Shown here piece by piece: positions 4,319-16,236 of a stretch of 64,000 nt of DNA. This DNA is from Fimbriimonas ginsengisoli Gsoil 348 (GTDB lineage Bacteria; Armatimonadota; Fimbriimonadia; Fimbriimonadales; Fimbriimonadaceae). Location of the stretch: positions 186,001 through 250,000 of the forward strand of contig NZ_CP007139.1 in the NCBI RefSeq assembly GCF_000724625.1, in the 5' to 3' direction. Under the pieces are notes generated by a model. It worked only from the letters and a program-made list of their open reading frames with translations. It made no database searches and was not told the origin of the DNA. A program made the translations under genes and the position numbers. Positions within the stretch are counted from its first letter, which is position 1; every line of letters starts with the position of its first letter.

Positions 4319-4717
4319 TCACCACAGCACCGGCGCTCCATATTCGCGAAGGACTGGGTCCGGACTCACGATCGTTAACCCTTCCGCTAGTGCTTGAGCG
4401 ATTAACATGCGATCAAATGGATCGCGATGGATCATTGGAAGCCGGTACAGGGTGCCCACGTGACCGAGGGTAATGGCCAAGAAATCGGTCTTGATTTTGT
4501 CCGCATATCGAATCGCGATACGGTCGATATCGTCTGGTAGAAAAAGCTTTCCGAGCCCGTGCTTGATCTGCATCTCCCAAAGCGAAGCGACGCTCACGTA
4601 CAAGGGCGCCGATGGCTCCGCGAGGGCAATCTTGGCTTCCGGACTTACTTTTGCGTAATTCTCGTTTGCCCAAAGAAAGACGTTGGTGTCCAGTAAATAG
4701 CCGCCGCTATTCACCAT
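4319..4717 (-). CDS. vapC: VapC-type PIN-domain toxin
   Basis: A 132-residue PIN-domain protein, the usual length of VapC toxins, which are Mg2+-dependent RNases cutting tRNA or rRNA. The acidic residues are in place: Asp in LLDTNVFLWANE (~residue 10), Glu in SLWEMQIKHGLGKL (~48), the pair in HRDPFDRMLIAQALAEGL (~99-103), and Asp in IVSPDPVLREYG (~118). Its start overlaps the 3' end of the antitoxin gene by 11 bp. The HRDPFDR block is the subtype typically paired with Phd/YefM antitoxins, which matches the neighbour. Confidence 0.88.
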   Translation of the reverse strand: MVNSGGYLLDTNVFLWANENYAKVSPEAKIALAEPSAPLYVSVASLWEMQIKHGLGKLFLPDDIDRIAIRYADKIKTDFLAITLGHVGTLYRLPMIHRDPFDRMLIAQALAEGLTIVSPDPVLREYGAPVLW

Positions 4718-4943
4718 GCCAATCCTTCAACTCTTCTTCGTTAAGCGGGGCAAACGCTTCGTCGGGGATATTAAGCTCGCCTTCGAAGGCGCCGAATACG
4801 CGACCTTGCTTCGCCTCGATCGCAGGCTTGATTTCAGCGATCGGCTTATTGTGGCGGGTGACCACGACGGTCTCCCCTTCCTCAACTCGGCGAAGCAATT
4901 CCGAGAAATGCGCCTTAGCTTCGTGTACGCTCAGCTTCGTCAT
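4707..4943 (-). CDS. Phd/YefM-family antitoxin
   Basis: A 78-residue protein with the Phd/YefM DNA-binding N-terminus: MTKLSVHEAKAHFSELL, then a segment reading EGETVVVTRHNKPIAEIKP. These antitoxins dimerise, bind their own operator and wrap the toxin with a disordered C-terminal tail, here the acidic stretch DEAFAPLNEEELKDW. It is promoter-proximal to vapC and overlaps it by 11 bp. The upstream 20-bp-spaced repeats are candidate operator half-sites. Confidence 0.87.
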   Translation of the reverse strand: MTKLSVHEAKAHFSELLRRVEEGETVVVTRHNKPIAEIKPAIEAKQGRVFGAFEGELNIPDEAFAPLNEEELKDWHGE

Positions 4944-6391: not shown

Positions 6392-6503
6392 GGCGGCACA
6401 CGTAGGTGCCGGCTACACGGCTACGAAGTAGCGGAGTGGAAGTACACCTGGCGGTTACGCGGCTTCGCCGCAGGGGAGGCCGGCCTGGAGACCAGCGGTC
6501 CTA
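6392..6503. repeat. Composite intergenic repeat (family B), copy 1
   Basis: Contains CACGTAGGTGCCGGCTACA (6399-6417) and, further on, GGCTTCGCCGCAGGGGAGGC, then CCTGGAGACCAGCGGTCC. Both modules recur in the same order at 17986-18060, upstream of the coiled-coil gene. It appears non-coding. Confidence 0.7.
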
Positions 6504-6509
6504 CGCACA

Positions 6510-6539
6510 GAAAGGCGCGAAGGAGCCTTCACGCCTTTC
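6510..6539. terminator. Bidirectional terminator hairpin
   Basis: GAAAGGCGCGAAGG, a 2-base turn, then CCTTCACGCCTTTC form a 14-position stem with one C-A mismatch. It lies between convergent genes (the 98-residue hypothetical and flgM). The stem's own A- and T-rich ends give short T tracts in both directions, fitting a shared terminator. Confidence 0.6.
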
Positions 6540-6562
6540 TTACCCCCGGTCAGACGCCGGGT

Positions 6563-6832
6563 TTAACGAATCCGGTCGGCGATTGCTCGCCGTACCATCC
6601 CATCAACGATATCTTCGGCCGAGGGGTTGTAGGTGCCTGCCTCAATCTTGGCTCGGAGTTCCGCGATCATCGCTTCCCTATCCGACATCCCCGCTATCTC
6701 GTCCGTAAGCTTCTCCACGAGCGCATGGTCCTCCTCGCGAACGCGCGTTTCGCCGATCTCCACGATCTCCTCGACGATATTCGCCGGGGTCGTGCTTCTA
6801 ATCTTCTGTACTTCGGTGTCTGAAATCCGCAT
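6563..6832 (-). CDS. flgM: FlgM-like anti-sigma-28 factor
   Basis: An 89-residue protein with FlgM layout: a flexible N-terminal half and a helical C-terminal sigma-binding half, AELRAKIEAGTYNPSAEDIV then DGMVRRAIADRI. Compare the family pattern 'I..G.Y.vdae.iA..ml.ral.d'. FlgM binds sigma-28 (FliA) and holds back late flagellar genes. The long acidic segment ETRVREEDHALVEKLTDEIA differs from enterobacterial FlgM. AGGA lies 8 nt before the ATG, and a probable c-di-GMP-I riboswitch occupies the leader. No other flagellar gene is in the window. Confidence 0.7.
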   Translation of the reverse strand: MRISDTEVQKIRSTTPANIVEEIVEIGETRVREEDHALVEKLTDEIAGMSDREAMIAELRAKIEAGTYNPSAEDIVDGMVRRAIADRIR

Positions 6833-6854
6833 GATCTTTTTCCTGCGCGTTCCA

Positions 6855-6940
6855 GACAGGCAACCCGGCTCTCTCGGCTCCTGACCGAGATCCTTGGCTT
6901 TGCGTGGTAGGGGTCACCCCCATCGTGCCATTTTTCTGTC
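6855..6940 (-). promoter_or_regulatory. Probable cyclic-di-GMP-I (GEMM-I) riboswitch
   Basis: Read on the minus strand, the leader of flgM shows the GEMM-I parts in order. These are P1 5' strand GACAG (6936-6940), an A-rich joint, UGGCA, a stem GGGG/CCCC capped by a GUGA (GNRA) tetraloop, the invariant ACGCAAAGCC, a second stem CUCGG/CCGAG, GCCGGGUUGCC, and P1 3' strand CUGUC (6855-6859). Total length is about 86 nt, as in the family. The first core differs somewhat (GGCACGA where GGGCAAA is usual). Only 22 nt separate it from the flgM ATG. CCUG of the P1 3' side could pair with CAGG of the ribosome site, so ligand binding would free the site (inferred ON switch). Confidence 0.72.
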
Positions 6941-7093
6941 GTAGGCCCTTCCTGAACCTTTCGCTAAATATCATATCGGCGGGCTCGTCACGCTCTTCAG
7001 GGCTTTTTTATCAAAATACCAATTCCCGGTCACAGATTTCCGGGACACCGCTATCCCCAGTAAAATAGCGCCAATAACCGCCAGGAGGCAACG

Positions 7094-8257
7094 ATGCCAA
7101 GGTATGTCCGTCTCGGGGAACTTCCCCACAAGCATCACACGCAATTTCGCCAGTCGAACGGCTCTCTCTACACGGAGCAACTCTTCTCCACTCGTGGGTT
7201 CAGCGGGCCGATGTCGACGATGTATCACATCAACCAGCCCACCGAAGTCTCGGGTTGGGAAGACAAAGGCTCGGTCGCTCCGCGCTACCTGGACGATGAA
7301 CCCCTAAGGCACCGGCACCTTAAAACCGCGCGTATGAAGCCGCACGGGGATTTCGTCAGCGGGCGGATCACCTTGATGGGAAACCAAGACGTAACCTGGT
7401 CGCAGGCGCTGGTCGCAGATCAGTTTCAGGGATTCTACAAGAACGCGGACGGGGACGAGTGCCTTTTCATACACGACGGGGAGGGGACGATGGAGTCGAT
7501 GTTCGGCACGATCGACTTCCATCCCGGCGACTACCTGGTGATCCCGCGAGGGACGATCTTCCGTTTGAATTTCAACTCGTTCCCGGTTCGGATGATAGCC
7601 GTCGTCTCGTTCGGGCCGATCGAAATCCCGCGTCGATACCGGAACGAATTCGGCCAGTTGCTGGAGCACGCCCCCTACAGCGAGCGGGACATCCGCCCGC
7701 CGAGCGAACTGATCACTCATGACAGCCGGAAACCAAACGACGTCCTAATCCGCGCCAGGAACCGGCACACGCTCTACCACTATCCGTACCATCCGTTCGA
7801 CGTGATCGGCTGGGACGGGTACGTCTTCCCGTTCGCGTTCAGCATTCACGATTTCTCACCCATCACCGGCAAGCTCCACATGCCGCCGCCGATCCACCAG
7901 ACATTCCAAGGGAACGGGTTCGTGGTCTGCTCGTTCTGCCCCCGGATGCTCGATTACCACCCGCACGCGATCGCGGTGCCTTACGCGCACTCCAACGTCG
8001 ACAGCGACGAGGTCCTCTACTACTGCAACGACAAATTCGGCTCGCGCAAAGGGATCGAAGAGGGCTCGATCACCCTCCACCCGCTGGGGATTCCCCATGG
8101 ACCGCAGCCGGGCGCGGTCGAGGCGTCGCTCGGGGCAACCAAGACAGAGGAGCTGGCCGTGATGGTCGACACGTTCCATCCGTTCAAGCTGACCAAGGAC
8201 GCCTTGGAGATCGAGGACCCGGATTACTGGAAGAGCTGGCAAACCAAGACCACCTAG
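7094..8257 (+). CDS. hmgA: Homogentisate 1,2-dioxygenase
   Basis: A 387-residue cupin-type Fe(II) dioxygenase that opens the homogentisate ring in tyrosine/phenylalanine breakdown, giving maleylacetoacetate. Supporting stretches are ECLFIHDGEGTMESMFGTI with a following GDYLVIPRGTIFRL (first cupin, ~residues 120-165), then in the second cupin YAHSNVDSDEVLYYCNDKFG (~300-320) and ITLHPLGIPHGPQPG (~330-345). These contain the His/Glu/His iron-ligand region of this family. The length matches the short bacterial form. AGGAGG lies 6 nt upstream of the ATG. No other homogentisate-pathway gene is adjacent. Confidence 0.9.
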   Translation: MPRYVRLGELPHKHHTQFRQSNGSLYTEQLFSTRGFSGPMSTMYHINQPTEVSGWEDKGSVAPRYLDDEPLRHRHLKTARMKPHGDFVSGRITLMGNQDVTWSQALVADQFQGFYKNADGDECLFIHDGEGTMESMFGTIDFHPGDYLVIPRGTIFRLNFNSFPVRMIAVVSFGPIEIPRRYRNEFGQLLEHAPYSERDIRPPSELITHDSRKPNDVLIRARNRHTLYHYPYHPFDVIGWDGYVFPFAFSIHDFSPITGKLHMPPPIHQTFQGNGFVVCSFCPRMLDYHPHAIAVPYAHSNVDSDEVLYYCNDKFGSRKGIEEGSITLHPLGIPHGPQPGAVEASLGATKTEELAVMVDTFHPFKLTKDALEIEDPDYWKSWQTKTT

Positions 8258-10446: not shown

Positions 10447-10893
10447 TCATGGATCGCGCCAGTTTTGGAGCTCGAGTCGGTGGCCAGCGGCAACTATGCG
10501 CGAGAAATGTTTGGTATTGGCGTTTACGAGGGTTAAGTTGTGAGTGATGGCGGTTGCCGCGATGAGACAATCGACCACGCCAATGGCGGTCCCAGCCAGG
10601 ACAAGGTCAGCGTTGATCACCCCAGCCAAGGCCATTACAGCTTGATCCGGGTAGATCACCTCAAACTGCGGTAAGGTTTCGTTCAGAAACTGCGAGATGG
10701 CGGCGTCGAGCCTCTTACGCCTTAAACCATCGACCACCTCCACGATAGTTAAAGCGCTCAATGTGAATTGCGGATATTCGCCTAGGTAGCGGATAGCCTG
10801 GTTTCGGGTGCTTTGCGCCCATGCAGTCTGCTGATGCTTCGGCGCGTTCAGCATGTCGAAATACGTGCTGCTATCGAGGAGCGCTTTAGGCAC
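10447..10893 (-). CDS. vapC: VapC-type PIN-domain toxin (second pair)
   Basis: A 148-residue PIN-domain protein. Candidate catalytic acids are Asp in ALLDSSTYFDM (~7), Glu in LTIVEVVDGLRRKR (~51), Asp in AIGVVDCLIAATAITHNLTL (~108), and the late NANTKHFSRI block where VapC toxins carry Asn/Asp before a conserved HF. It is a different subtype from the 4.3-kb toxin: FxxI-ending, longer and with no HRDPFDR. Its start overlaps the antitoxin end by 8 bp. Confidence 0.85.
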   Translation of the reverse strand: MPKALLDSSTYFDMLNAPKHQQTAWAQSTRNQAIRYLGEYPQFTLSALTIVEVVDGLRRKRLDAAISQFLNETLPQFEVIYPDQAVMALAGVINADLVLAGTAIGVVDCLIAATAITHNLTLVNANTKHFSRIVAAGHRLELQNWRDP

Positions 10894-11167
10894 GCGGGGT
10901 CAACTTCTCCGCCCTAATGCGGCGGCTGCCCCTCTTAATTTCGTCTACCGTATCATCCGGCAATTGCTGAAAGAGATCAACCCCCGGCACGAGTCGCTGA
11001 AATGTTTCCCAGTCGTTCCCTTGCCCAGATAATTTAACGGCTCTTGTGGACTTGCCCTTCAATGCCTCACGAATGAGCTTGGTGGCGGCTTCGGCCGGAG
11101 AAATGTGTTCCGTCTTGGCGTAAAGTTCCAGATCGCGCTTTACATTCGCGGGCAATTCAAAGCTCAT
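10886..11167 (-). CDS. Antitoxin partner of VapC (ribbon-helix-helix-like)
   Basis: A 93-residue protein. Its N-terminus MSFELPANVKRDLELYA followed by ISPAEAATKLIREAL fits a ribbon-helix-helix DNA-binding fold: a short strand and two helices. The charged tail ends GSRRIRAEKLTPRA. Position and 8-bp overlap with the PIN gene make the antitoxin role likely. The minus-strand upstream A/T-rich block at about 11173-11182 (TAATATAAAG) could be the -10 region. Confidence 0.75.
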   Translation of the reverse strand: MSFELPANVKRDLELYAKTEHISPAEAATKLIREALKGKSTRAVKLSGQGNDWETFQRLVPGVDLFQQLPDDTVDEIKRGSRRIRAEKLTPRA

Positions 11168-11232: not shown

Positions 11233-14200
11233 CTAGAGGGGCTTCTTTGCCGTAGCGGCGGAAGAAAGGGGTTCTGGGGTTCGATGCTCTAGATAGTCGA
11301 CGACAAGCGGCAGTAGCCGGTTGGCGAGGCTGAATTTGAGCATGGCGCCGCCGGTGTTGGTGTCGCGCATGAAGAAGTAGCCGGTGACGGTTTTTCCGGG
11401 GACGAAGGCGCCGTTTTGGAAGCGGCCGATGGTGAACATGAGCGATTCGCTGTCGATCTCTTCGCCCAGGGTGCCGGTTTTCATGATCGCACGGTAACCC
11501 TTGAAGTCGACTTGTATCGACTTCGCGGTGCCCGAGATGTGCACTCGCTCCAGCGGAGTCAGCAGCGCTTTCTCCCGCCACGGACCGAGCGAGATCGGGG
11601 CGGGCATCAGCGGGAAGTGCGGCTCCAACCCCTGTTCCAAGCGGGCGGAAACGCGTAAACCGGTCGAGAGGCGGGCGAACGCCTCGGCCATGGAGACGTT
11701 GTTCCACACCGACTGGGCTCCGCCGATGAGCGAGGTCAACAGCTCTTGCTTTACCGAGTGCATCGAGTCGCACTCGTACAGCACACGGCGCGGGACGACT
11801 TCGCTGGCAAAGGTCGGCATGTGGGCGTCCGCTTGCCAGGCGAGAGTCGGCAGGAAGCTCGCCATGCGTTGGTGCACCGCTTCCGACTCGGTCGTCTTAT
11901 TCGGCGGAATCTGCACGTCGTAAAGCTCGGACAGGCCCTGGAACAGCAACGTATCGCTCAGATTCGTCCGCGGCACCCACCCCCCGGTTCGAGGCTCGCG
12001 GGAGACGACGCGGTTGGGGGAGTTCAGCAGATTGATTCGGTACGGCTTGCCTTCGAGGGTGATGTCGGCGTTTGCGGCGTCGGGTACGAGCGTGGTCTTC
12101 AGTTCGTCCGTCGACTCGACCAGACCGAGCGCACCGATAACGCAGGCGGGCCAGGTGCGAGACTGGGTCAGGAATTCCGACATCGTGACCGAACCGGCGG
12201 GCGGGTAGGGCGCGGTCGGAGTCTCCAGCGGAATGCCGCCGAGGTTGTCGTGTTCCAGCGTTCGGTTGTGAACGACGGCGTCCTCCAAGTGATATTTCGG
12301 CAACAGCTTGACCGCCATCGTGGAGAAGGTCAGCGGCTTTATCGTCGAACCGATCACGTGGTTTTCGAAGTTCCAATTACGCAGCAGCTTGCCGCGCCGG
12401 ATCGGGCCGCTCCGGCCGAAGTCATCCTCATACAGGTCCGACGTAGGATCGACGTGCGGGAACGACGGAAGCGCCAGCACATCTCCCTTGAACGTGTCGA
12501 TAAGCGTCATCGACACCGGCTTCGTCCGTTCCGGGTCTTCCAGCTTCCAGTTCAGGCCGCTTCGCGGCGACTGCTGCAGGCACCAGGAGCGCAGAGCGTC
12601 CTGAAGCCGCCGATGCAGGCCGAGGTCCAACGTTAGCTTCAGGTCGTCTTTCGGCTTGACTTCGTCGCCCACGCGGCCGAGATTGGCCACCATGCCGAAC
12701 GAGGGACCACCGGGGAAGACGCGGCGGTATGCGCCGTTTCGCCAGCGGACGAACGCCAGCGGTTCGGCCTGAGTTCCGAGGTAAATCAGGTTGTATCGTC
12801 GCGGGCTTCGGCCGGTGCGGTCTTCTATGGACACGAGGTCGTTCGGCTGGAGCTGCAGCCCGGCATCCGGCACCGGCTTCCCTTCAACGAAAACGCCCCA
12901 ACCGCGCTCGCGGGGAAGCGACTGCGGGATACGGGCCTTGAGGGTGACGAACGTTTTTTTGCCGACCTTACGGCGGCGATACTCGGCGAACTCCACGCGG
13001 CCGAACGGAGAACGGGCGGCGAGAATCGCCGCGTTCGCCCGGGTCACGGGTTGGGCGGAGTCGATCCAGACCACCTCGGGGAATCCGCCTTGGTTTAGCG
13101 AGAGGCTGAGCGGGCTGCTGAGCATGTAGAGCCGGGGGGCCTCTTCACCCGCACCGGCGGCGAGGATGCTCTTACGCCACGGGATTCCCTGTCCGCGTTT
13201 GTACGGCGACGACAGGTGGAAATAGGCACGGTTGACCTCCAGGTCAAACGAGCCGGCCGCATTCGGCTGGATGTAGTAGAGTCCCGCCTGCGGGTCCGAT
13301 TTGTCGGCACGGAAATTGAATTCCCGGATCGCCTCTTTCTCGATCGGGCTGAGCCCGGGCACGGACTCCGGGTCGATGTGCCCGCTGTCCGAAAGCTTCA
13401 CTTGTCCCTGCTCCACCCGCTTCACGACCTGGCGCATTACCTCCGGAGCATCGAGATCCTGGGTGAAGGAGACCGGCATCCCGATGCCTGCGCGGGCGAC
13501 GCCGAGCCAAAGAAGCCCGGAACCAACCCCGAATGCGGTGAAGAGCCAAGAACCCGCCTTCGGTGGCACGTTGGCCCCCCGCGGCCGCCGCTTGAGGAGG
13601 ACGGAAGCGATGGTAAGGAGCACGAGCCCTTGCAGAACGTCGCCTTGCGAGTAGAGCGACAGGAGCGGCAGGTTTTGACCGGTGAACGGGAGCGATCCGG
13701 TGTTGGCGGCCGCCATGTACAGTCCGTTTGCCGCAAAGAAGCCTCCGATCGCCGCGAGCGGCACGAACATCCACGATCCATCGCGCCTCGCGCTGGCGGC
13801 GCCGGCAAAGCAGGCGGCCATGATGACCATGTATAGCGCCGTCAACCAAGCGCCCGCCCACGGCCCGAACTCGCCGAGCACGTAGATCGAGTACGTCGTG
13901 TCGGTCATGGAGGTCGGGTATTTCAGCGCCACCTTAGATAGCGGGGCGCCGCCGTATCCCGGGTTCTTGTCCGACGCGCCGACGGCGGCGTAGAGGAGCA
14001 TCTGCCATTGCTGCTCGCGGTTGTTCCGGTATTGGGTGGCCTCCAAATGCTCGGTGCGAGCCGGATTCAGCAGCATCTCCGGGTCGAGGTCGTCGAGGCT
14101 CGCGAGCCGGTAGGCCACGGTTCCGTTGAACGTCTCGAAGTGCTGGATGAAGAACCGGCGGTTCAGGCTGAGAGCGACCAACGCCAGAAGCGCAACGCCC

Positions 14201-16236
14201 AGGGCAATCGCCACGCCCGAGGTGAAACCACGCGGAGAACGCTTGGTTTGCAACGCGCGGAAAGGGAGCCAGGCCACCAAAAGAGCGAGGCCGATGGAGA
14301 GGCCATACACGAGAGCGCCGTTATCGCCGACCGCCAGCACGTTCATCGCCAGTGCGAGCAGATTCAGAACGACGAAAAATGTAAGGCCGCGGCGGTGCCA
14401 AAGCCCGATTTGCTTCCCTTCGGCTGGAGACGTGTCTTTTCGGGCCGCGACGGCAAGTGCGAATGCCACGAAACCGGCGATAAGTAGAAGATGGGTCCAG
14501 ATACTGGTGCGAATCCCGAACAGATCGTTTCGGGTGCCAAAGATCCGGGCGAGGATCGGCGCAAGCATTCCTAGCGCCGGGAGGACCAAACAGATCCGGT
14601 CGAACGGCAGGCCGAGGAACTGCTTGCGGGTTCCTTCGAGTTGCCGCTGCTTTACTACCGGCAGGTAGCGGAGCCGTGCCAGCGCCATCGCGGCCGGAAT
14701 GGCGACAAGGGCAAAGAGCGATACGCGGAGCGCCTTGTGAAAACTGACGAGCTCGCTGAGGGTCGCATCATCGGGCGGTAGGAGGGAGCACCGGTAGGCG
14801 AGCAGCAGGCGGACAGTGAGCAGGGCGACGGTTCCCACCCACAAGAATGCCCAGGCCACATCTCCGCGACCGACGGGGCGAGCCCGCCACCACAGGGCGA
14901 GGCCGAACAGAACTCCCAGCCCGGCAAACGCAAATAGGGCGAGGCGACCGGCTCCGGGAACGGAAGGTTTATCGACATGAAACCTGGCCTCGATTCCCTG
15001 CTGAAGGTCGCCGAGGTAGACCGGGGCATCGTCGCCGTGGCTCCGTTCCGAGACGCCATCCTGCACCGTCATCCCGGCAGAATCGGGTCGGGCGAGCGCC
15101 TTCGCGTAGAACGGGTGGTTATCGTTTCCGGTGGGAAAGACGAATCCGTCCATCGGCACCATGTCGCGTCCGGACGTCATGAGGAACGACTGCTCGGGAT
15201 CCGCGGGCTTTGCTTTGGGGGGCAGCGGGTACGAGACCGGAACTTCGAATTCGGCCACTAAACGCGATTCGTCGATCTTCGCCGGCAGTTTCAGGGCGAA
15301 CCGTTGCGAACCGGTGAAACCGAAGGAGAGGGTCGCGTCCTGAGTGGCGGGGATCTCCGAGGGGGCGGTTGCGGCTCTCAAGTCCAACGGTTTGTCGTTC
15401 CGAAGAACTTGGACGCCGTCGTCGGCCAGAGCCGGGTCAATGAGCACGCCGATCTTCGATCCTGAGTCTCCCTTTCTCTCCCTGACGACACAGACATCGC
15501 CGAGCATCGACCACGGGTCGACGTCCGTGCCGGCTTGGAGGGCGAGTGGGACATTGGAAGCCGGGAATCGAGTCGCTAGTCCGGCGGCTTGGAGAAGGGT
15601 GGTGAGGCGGGCGCCCTCTCGCAACTGACGGGCGGCAAGTTGGATGGTCTTCGGGTTTGCGGAGTCGCGATAGCCGATCTTCAGCGAGTCCCCGTCCCCT
15701 TCCAGGGTGACGGCGATGAACCGCTCGGGTTCTTTTCGTGAGGTTCGGAAGGTGAACTGGTACGTATCGTTCCGCTGCAACCATCCCCCGGGGATTCCAT
15801 TGACGATCTTTCCATCGATACGGACCGGGGTGTCGATATTCGGACCCTCAACCCGCCAGCTCTTGATCGCGCCGTTCGCCGCATCGGCGATGAGTCTTAC
15901 CCGCTGGCCCGCGCCAAGTCCGGGGATTTGGAATCCGTCGCGCTCGACGGCGTCGGACCGGATCGGATCGCCCGTGAACGTTAGCGCCGGCTTCGAGCCT
16001 TCGGGCGCTCGGGTGTAGAGGCCGACCTGCTGAATACGGGCGAGAGCACGAGCGGGAATGCGAGGGGAGCCGCCGGGTCCGAGTCCCATGTAACCGGCAA
16101 CGGTGATCCCGAGGAGCAGGAGCGATACCGCGCCGAATAGCGTTAGCACCCCCCGCGCCAGCCCAGACGCCTCGTCGTCTTCCCATGGCCGCACCGCCAC
16201 CGCGATGAACGCGAGCACGACGAGACCGATGAACAA
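11233..16236 (-). CDS. SEDS glycosyltransferase fused to class B PBP transpeptidase
   Basis: A 1667-residue membrane protein joining both enzymes of septal or lateral peptidoglycan synthesis. Residues 1-50 hold two hydrophobic segments; ~60-425 is a beta-rich extracytoplasmic region of unknown fold. Residues ~428-900 are multi-helix SEDS (RodA/FtsW/SpoVE-like) with YPTSMTDTTYSIYVLGEFG and TGSLPFTGQNLPLLSLYSQG; Asp779 in TDTTYS matches the catalytic Asp of RodA HTDFIF. Residues ~1190-1667 are a penicillin-binding transpeptidase: LDLGLHRRLQDAL, VLALPSFPHVDP, active Ser1297 in GSTIK (SxxK) and MKTGT at 1585-1589 (KTG). The SxN motif is non-standard; a candidate is Ser1359 in QSRT. No GT51 domain is seen. 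It is the last gene of an apparent three-gene leftward operon. Confidence 0.85.
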   Translation of the reverse strand: MFIGLVVLAFIAVAVRPWEDDEASGLARGVLTLFGAVSLLLLGITVAGYMGLGPGGSPRIPARALARIQQVGLYTRAPEGSKPALTFTGDPIRSDAVERDGFQIPGLGAGQRVRLIADAANGAIKSWRVEGPNIDTPVRIDGKIVNGIPGGWLQRNDTYQFTFRTSRKEPERFIAVTLEGDGDSLKIGYRDSANPKTIQLAARQLREGARLTTLLQAAGLATRFPASNVPLALQAGTDVDPWSMLGDVCVVRERKGDSGSKIGVLIDPALADDGVQVLRNDKPLDLRAATAPSEIPATQDATLSFGFTGSQRFALKLPAKIDESRLVAEFEVPVSYPLPPKAKPADPEQSFLMTSGRDMVPMDGFVFPTGNDNHPFYAKALARPDSAGMTVQDGVSERSHGDDAPVYLGDLQQGIEARFHVDKPSVPGAGRLALFAFAGLGVLFGLALWWRARPVGRGDVAWAFLWVGTVALLTVRLLLAYRCSLLPPDDATLSELVSFHKALRVSLFALVAIPAAMALARLRYLPVVKQRQLEGTRKQFLGLPFDRICLVLPALGMLAPILARIFGTRNDLFGIRTSIWTHLLLIAGFVAFALAVAARKDTSPAEGKQIGLWHRRGLTFFVVLNLLALAMNVLAVGDNGALVYGLSIGLALLVAWLPFRALQTKRSPRGFTSGVAIALGVALLALVALSLNRRFFIQHFETFNGTVAYRLASLDDLDPEMLLNPARTEHLEATQYRNNREQQWQMLLYAAVGASDKNPGYGGAPLSKVALKYPTSMTDTTYSIYVLGEFGPWAGAWLTALYMVIMAACFAGAASARRDGSWMFVPLAAIGGFFAANGLYMAAANTGSLPFTGQNLPLLSLYSQGDVLQGLVLLTIASVLLKRRPRGANVPPKAGSWLFTAFGVGSGLLWLGVARAGIGMPVSFTQDLDAPEVMRQVVKRVEQGQVKLSDSGHIDPESVPGLSPIEKEAIREFNFRADKSDPQAGLYYIQPNAAGSFDLEVNRAYFHLSSPYKRGQGIPWRKSILAAGAGEEAPRLYMLSSPLSLSLNQGGFPEVVWIDSAQPVTRANAAILAARSPFGRVEFAEYRRRKVGKKTFVTLKARIPQSLPRERGWGVFVEGKPVPDAGLQLQPNDLVSIEDRTGRSPRRYNLIYLGTQAEPLAFVRWRNGAYRRVFPGGPSFGMVANLGRVGDEVKPKDDLKLTLDLGLHRRLQDALRSWCLQQSPRSGLNWKLEDPERTKPVSMTLIDTFKGDVLALPSFPHVDPTSDLYEDDFGRSGPIRRGKLLRNWNFENHVIGSTIKPLTFSTMAVKLLPKYHLEDAVVHNRTLEHDNLGGIPLETPTAPYPPAGSVTMSEFLTQSRTWPACVIGALGLVESTDELKTTLVPDAANADITLEGKPYRINLLNSPNRVVSREPRTGGWVPRTNLSDTLLFQGLSELYDVQIPPNKTTESEAVHQRMASFLPTLAWQADAHMPTFASEVVPRRVLYECDSMHSVKQELLTSLIGGAQSVWNNVSMAEAFARLSTGLRVSARLEQGLEPHFPLMPAPISLGPWREKALLTPLERVHISGTAKSIQVDFKGYRAIMKTGTLGEEIDSESLMFTIGRFQNGAFVPGKTVTGYFFMRDTNTGGAMLKFSLANRLLPLVVDYLEHRTPEPLSSAATAKKPL

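Follow-up and report, generated by a model that had tools for sequence, protein, structure and literature searches.

A candidate c-di-GMP-I riboswitch that probably turns on translation of the anti-sigma factor FlgM in Fimbriimonas ginsengisoli

In the window that we analyzed (the whole stretch of 64,000 nucleotides), a small minus-strand gene encoding an FlgM-like protein is preceded by a leader that the initial annotation had taken for a c-di-GMP riboswitch, which raises the question of what this RNA senses, how it may act on flgM and what such a control could serve in this bacterium. We consider it fairly probable that the flgM 5' leader contains a c-di-GMP class I riboswitch acting as a translational ON switch for FlgM, which would hold FliA inactive. 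If this is true, c-di-GMP, the main settling-down signal, directly controls a flagellar anti-sigma factor by RNA alone in a little-studied phylum.

The presence of a GEMM-I aptamer ahead of flgM was borne out by a search against Rfam, which gave a full-length match to the c-di-GMP-I family RF01051 on the minus strand (6939-6856); it spans model positions 1-87 and scores 36.3 bits, the gathering threshold being 35 bits (E 0.0019). This is the sole Rfam match across the whole 64-kb window, and RF01051 exceeds its cut-off only once in the genome, a single contig of 5,231,762 bp. The following hallmarks of the family were found: a G at position 20 (6929), the ACGCAAAGCC core (6905-6896), C92, with GCCGGGUUGCC ending at C93 (6859), and a GNRA-capped stem whose GUGA tetraloop lies at 6917-6914. 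The P1 helix proposed earlier, GACAG/CUGUC, was also located, with its 5' strand at 6936-6940 and its 3' strand at 6855-6859 of the minus strand. The order of the aptamer parts, the core, G20, C92, the GNRA-capped stem and the use of P1 as the switch element are the same as in Vc2, C. difficile Cd1 and the Geobacter pilM riboswitch, all of RF01051. Textbook GEMM-I RNAs combine a GAAA tetraloop with a UAA-type receptor in the long stem, whereas both are absent from the window aptamer, which has its GUGA loop and a shortened stem, and relatives of this RNA mostly carry GCGA or GUGA loops and a compact stem. The Rfam model does not strictly demand the GAAA loop or its receptor, since the hit was accepted. 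Judged by its aptamer sequence, the window RNA is a member of RF01051.

The G at position 20 also bears on the ligand. A G20A change is known to shift GEMM-I aptamers towards cGAMP (PMC6274999), and an A is found at this position in three relatives, so that one may ask if the window aptamer is of the GEMM-Ib type and binds 3',3'-cGAMP instead of c-di-GMP; we regard this as very improbable, given that the window carries the G of the c-di-GMP type at 6929, as the initial annotation had assumed. We thus infer that the ligand is c-di-GMP. In the three relatives with A20 (L105 of G027, L014 of G048 and L013 of G049), a ligand switch inside the flgM riboswitch family is possible.

Downstream of the aptamer by 23 nt starts an open reading frame of 89 aa (6563-6832, minus strand), preceded by a Shine-Dalgarno (SD) sequence AGGA at 6841-6844, 8 nt ahead of the AUG. 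Its assignment as FlgM-like holds: residues 39-80 match the Pfam FlgM family PF04316 with 38.7 bits (cut-off 25 bits), and this is the only FlgM match in the genome. The NCBIfam equivalog model TIGR03824 gave 23.4 bits for the same protein, which is under its cut-off of 40.75. A gene resembling homogentisate 1,2-dioxygenase (7094-8257, plus strand) is divergent from flgM.

We then asked how general this arrangement is. RF01051 matches were detected in 95 of the 113 genomes of the class and FlgM in 94 of them, and parsing of the loci yielded 95 aptamer-flgM pairs in 94 genomes, with 13-87 nt between aptamer and start codon. Two further pairs (in G022 and G071) escaped parsing because of long insertions and were recognized by eye, so that a homologous aptamer stands directly ahead of flgM in 96/113 class genomes. 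Five others (G053-G055, G067 and G068) have flgM without the aptamer, and FlgM was not detected in the remaining twelve. Since the aptamer is the single hit above cut-off in its own genome and the same layout is seen again and again in the class, the linkage is more than chance. Elsewhere in the same phylum, aptamer and FlgM coordinates also adjoin; the 36 pairs fetched there include canonical aptamers with a GAAA loop, which score up to 90 bits. Among 20 FlgM loci examined in other phyla (Lachnospiraceae, Desulfomicrobium, Thermodesulfobacterium, Oligoflexia and others), no Rfam match was obtained, hence no sign of the linkage outside the phylum. The literature that we searched contained no paper on a c-di-GMP riboswitch directly linked to flgM, which is weak evidence of absence.

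The orthologs also show that the aptamer is maintained as a structure. Pairs were counted by parsing each sequence individually, because a MAFFT alignment placed P1 and the tetraloop stem of different clades out of register. The four inner pairs of the tetraloop stem form in 83/83 clearly capped orthologs, with four to five pair types each, and at least 60 of the 61 orthologs in the same register pair at each of the five P1 positions, while in other lineages P1 is swapped for unrelated complementary strings (CTTGG/CCAAG, TTCGA/TCGAA or TCCTTCTCAG/CTGAGAAGGA). P1 and the tetraloop stem covary. Position 20 is a G in 92/95 orthologs, C92-C93 is CC in 94/95, and the tetraloop reads GCGA, GUGA or GAGA in 82 of the 83 clearly capped ones; these GCGA/GUGA loops, together with the compact long stem of the class, explain the modest Rfam scores.

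Several variations on this locus were noticed along the way. The riboswitch-less G053-G055 (L111-L113) belong to one genus in which flgM is almost leaderless, and apparently the same homogentisate 1,2-dioxygenase-like gene, recognized by eye, stands beside it. The aptamer has been lost from G067 and G068 (L114-L115), which are AT-rich genomes of 1.5 Mb. In other Armatimonadota families (L164-L182), several loci carry GTTTGCCTTTTT downstream of the aptamer, complementary to its GGCAAAC, a complementarity suggesting that the flgM switch may work there through a transcription terminator. Canonical GEMM-I aptamers of 67-80 bits were also seen before secreted-looking subtilase (Peptidase_S8) genes (L005 of G040, L006 of G010 and L009 of G042).

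How could such an aptamer act on flgM? Both the minimum-energy and the centroid folds of the leader contain a 9-bp helix in which the P1 3' strand, together with the bases downstream of it (UGUCUGGAA, 6850-6858, minus strand), pairs with flgM codons 3-6 (UUUCAGACA, 6825-6817), so that the SD and the AUG are enclosed. In 50 orthologs whose FlgM begins with M-x-I-S-D/N, a mean of 8.68 out of 10 positions of this leader-ORF helix are paired, compared to 8.31 (sd 0.05) after exchanging the ORFs at random among species, where none of 5000 shuffles exceeded 8.52, and to 2.7-4.6 pairs in slid control registers. The third base of the Ser codon covaries with its partner in the leader (T/A 37, C/G 7, G/C 2), with a Fisher p of 1e-10 that ignores phylogeny.

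The initial annotation had proposed another pairing, in which the CCUG of the P1 3' strand (6860-6857) hides the SD through CAGG (6845-6842), which would make the leader an ordinary GEMM-I ON switch. Both strings do occur in the window and their pairing would compete with P1, but an exact counterpart exists in just 16/95 orthologs and the predicted folds take the leader-ORF helix instead. We consequently rejected CCUG/CAGG as the main switch, and consider a switch built on it quite improbable. Across the orthologs, the same switch logic is predicted from different sequence solutions: the P1 3' strand pairs with the ORF in 45 orthologs, while in other clades it pairs with the SD (20 orthologs, for example CUGUCUCC/GGAGGCAG) or the P1 5' strand does so (22 orthologs, for example GACAGGTCTCG/CGAGGTCTGTC).

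Because CUGUC is common to both, P1 and the leader-ORF helix are mutually exclusive, and ligand binding should therefore open the ribosome site. Accessibility of the SD alone gave a weak and mixed signal, because the helix in this lineage covers codons 3-6 and not the SD; this measure was replaced by the cost of opening the whole initiation region. With the aptamer formed, the modelled cost was lower in 83/95 orthologs and higher in 3, and the mean gain of 2.9 kcal/mol (Wilcoxon p 2e-15, a figure that ignores phylogeny) exceeded the 0.5 kcal/mol seen when the tails were shuffled, this small gain meaning that part of the effect is generic. In the window itself, the cost falls from 14.6 to 9.9 kcal/mol, and a residual 5-bp stretch of the hairpin stays in the modelled bound state, so that the site would not be fully open. 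The ON direction put forward earlier is well supported by this modelling. The opposite direction, in which the ligand would lower FlgM and free FliA at high c-di-GMP, deserves consideration since GEMM-I switches work both ways, Vc2 and Cd1 being OFF and pilM ON (PMC9262584). The thermodynamic comparison nevertheless assigns OFF to only 3 orthologs out of 95 and ON to 83. An OFF switch would also raise sigma-28 activity at high c-di-GMP, which is the opposite of the usual motility logic, and we hold it to be quite unlikely.

The ON switch that we favor would operate as follows. In cells lacking the ligand, UGUCUGGAA would pair with codons 3-6 of flgM, trapping SD and AUG in a hairpin; once c-di-GMP is bound, P1 would form and claim the shared CUGUC, the weakened hairpin would allow FlgM to be made, and FliA would be kept inactive. 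That FlgM binds FliA is something we infer. The controlled step is likely translation, and this distinguishes the leader from Cd1. The latter lies before the early flagellar flgB operon of C. difficile, where it is an OFF switch that acts by transcription termination, and its effect on flgM comes later, solely through sigma-D (PMC5386303); here flgM itself would be the target. Compared to known GEMM-I riboswitches, both the anti-sigma factor as a target and the extension of the masking helix into the coding sequence are particular to this system.

Transcription of the leader may add a further layer. A predicted sigma-28 (FliA) promoter lies upstream of the aptamer at 6973-7002 on the minus strand, consisting of CCCTGAAGA (7002-6994) and GCCGATAT (6980-6973) with 15 nt between TGAA and the -10 element. 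The pattern CCCTRAAGA-N11-15-GCCGATA matches once in the window (7002-6973) where 0 matches are expected, and no sigma-70-type promoter was found in 6400-7100. Many orthologs carry a TAAA...GCCGATAA motif (CCCTAAAGAA...GCCGATAA) about 27-42 nt ahead of the aptamer, and a stricter promoter regex matched upstream in 49/95 orthologs and in 0/95 in the downstream control. A sigma-28-type promoter in this position implies that flgM would be transcribed by FliA and gated by c-di-GMP. If the mRNA starts there, as is probable, FliA would feed its own inhibitor, and c-di-GMP would set the gain of the FliA-FlgM feedback loop. The genome encodes a single FliA over the cut-off of TIGR02479 (240.1 bits versus 189.6) and has 11 GGDEF matches, so that it plausibly contains the enzymes for the c-di-GMP signal.

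An FlgM family protein, a single FliA and a sigma-28 promoter for flgM are also what characterizes the FlgM-FliA checkpoint of Salmonella, E. coli and Bacillus, and a flagellar checkpoint is how the initial annotation had read the locus. In the classical checkpoint, FlgM is exported through the hook and this frees FliA, whereas no FlhA candidate was found in the F. ginsengisoli genome, so that this route is absent. FlhA is found in 92/113 class genomes, and the checkpoint reading fits the flagellated relatives, almost all of which have the aptamer ahead of flgM. Strain Gsoil 348 was described as non-motile, with one fliA and with a motility category that holds only pilus genes (PMC4072686). 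Because FlhA is missing and the species is non-motile, the circuit cannot be a flagellar checkpoint here.

This opens the question of whether the riboswitch and FlgM are only decaying passengers left after the loss of flagella, which would agree with the missing FlhA, with the non-motile description (PMC4072686) and with the fact that aptamer and FlgM were lost in three related FlhA-less genomes (G015, G016 and G023); these carry a FliA that has strongly diverged. We find it unlikely, since the aptamer core, P1, the tetraloop stem, the RBS-masking helix, the FlgM frame and the promoter are all intact, and four FlhA-less Fimbriimonas (G025, G027, G028 and G030) retain the aptamer and the masking helix. 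FliA, too, is under purifying selection (dN 0.154 and dS 2.06 against the flagellated relative G020), with its recognition helix kept. In F. ginsengisoli, the circuit is therefore probably functional with non-flagellar targets; that these targets are pili is a guess by analogy. A genome-wide consensus search for the FliA regulon gave 11 matches, mostly inside coding regions, against 11 in the reversed-pattern control, hence no excess; the pattern searched had a fixed spacing and would not capture even the promoter of flgM.

The four FlhA-less congeners cluster in a FliA tree, separately from F. ginsengisoli, although the deeper forks of this tree are not resolved. No clear standard FliA promoter was seen before their flgM genes. 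The region 4 recognition helix of their FliA proteins (L270, L272, L273 and L275) has changed from SESRVYQ to SEPRAYH or SEPRAHH, and the two features together hint at a co-evolved promoter specificity.

The analogy with pili comes from Rubrobacter, in which c-di-GMP controls type IV pili via an anti-sigma factor acting on a FliA/WhiG-type sigma factor (PMC8325347). The RsiG-WhiG pair and the circuit proposed here have the same order, from c-di-GMP to an anti-sigma factor to a FliA/WhiG-type sigma factor, in the absence of a flagellar role. In RsiG-WhiG, however, c-di-GMP binds the anti-sigma protein, whereas its receptor in the proposed circuit would be the mRNA of FlgM, an unrelated anti-sigma factor. 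The flgM leader would then represent a second, independent wiring of c-di-GMP to this type of sigma factor, as an RNA-based counterpart of RsiG-WhiG. On a broader scale, we are evenly divided over whether this is an ancient RNA circuit of the whole phylum Armatimonadota, in which c-di-GMP turns on translation of the anti-sigma factor by a switch located partly in the FlgM coding sequence, and which in F. ginsengisoli has persisted beyond the loss of the flagellum to control some other behavior. It would illustrate clearly how a regulatory module can be retained after the loss of the machine that it served, and it would make the sigma-28 regulon of a non-flagellated bacterium directly testable.

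Two more observations concern the rest of the window. An ORF of 1667 aa (11233-16236, minus strand), which matched no Pfam family, looks by eye like a fusion: one part resembles an FtsW/RodA-type membrane protein, the other a penicillin-binding-type domain that includes a KTG box. Inspection of the translations by eye further pointed to two probable PIN-domain toxin-antitoxin pairs, at 4319-4943 and 10447-11167, both on the minus strand.
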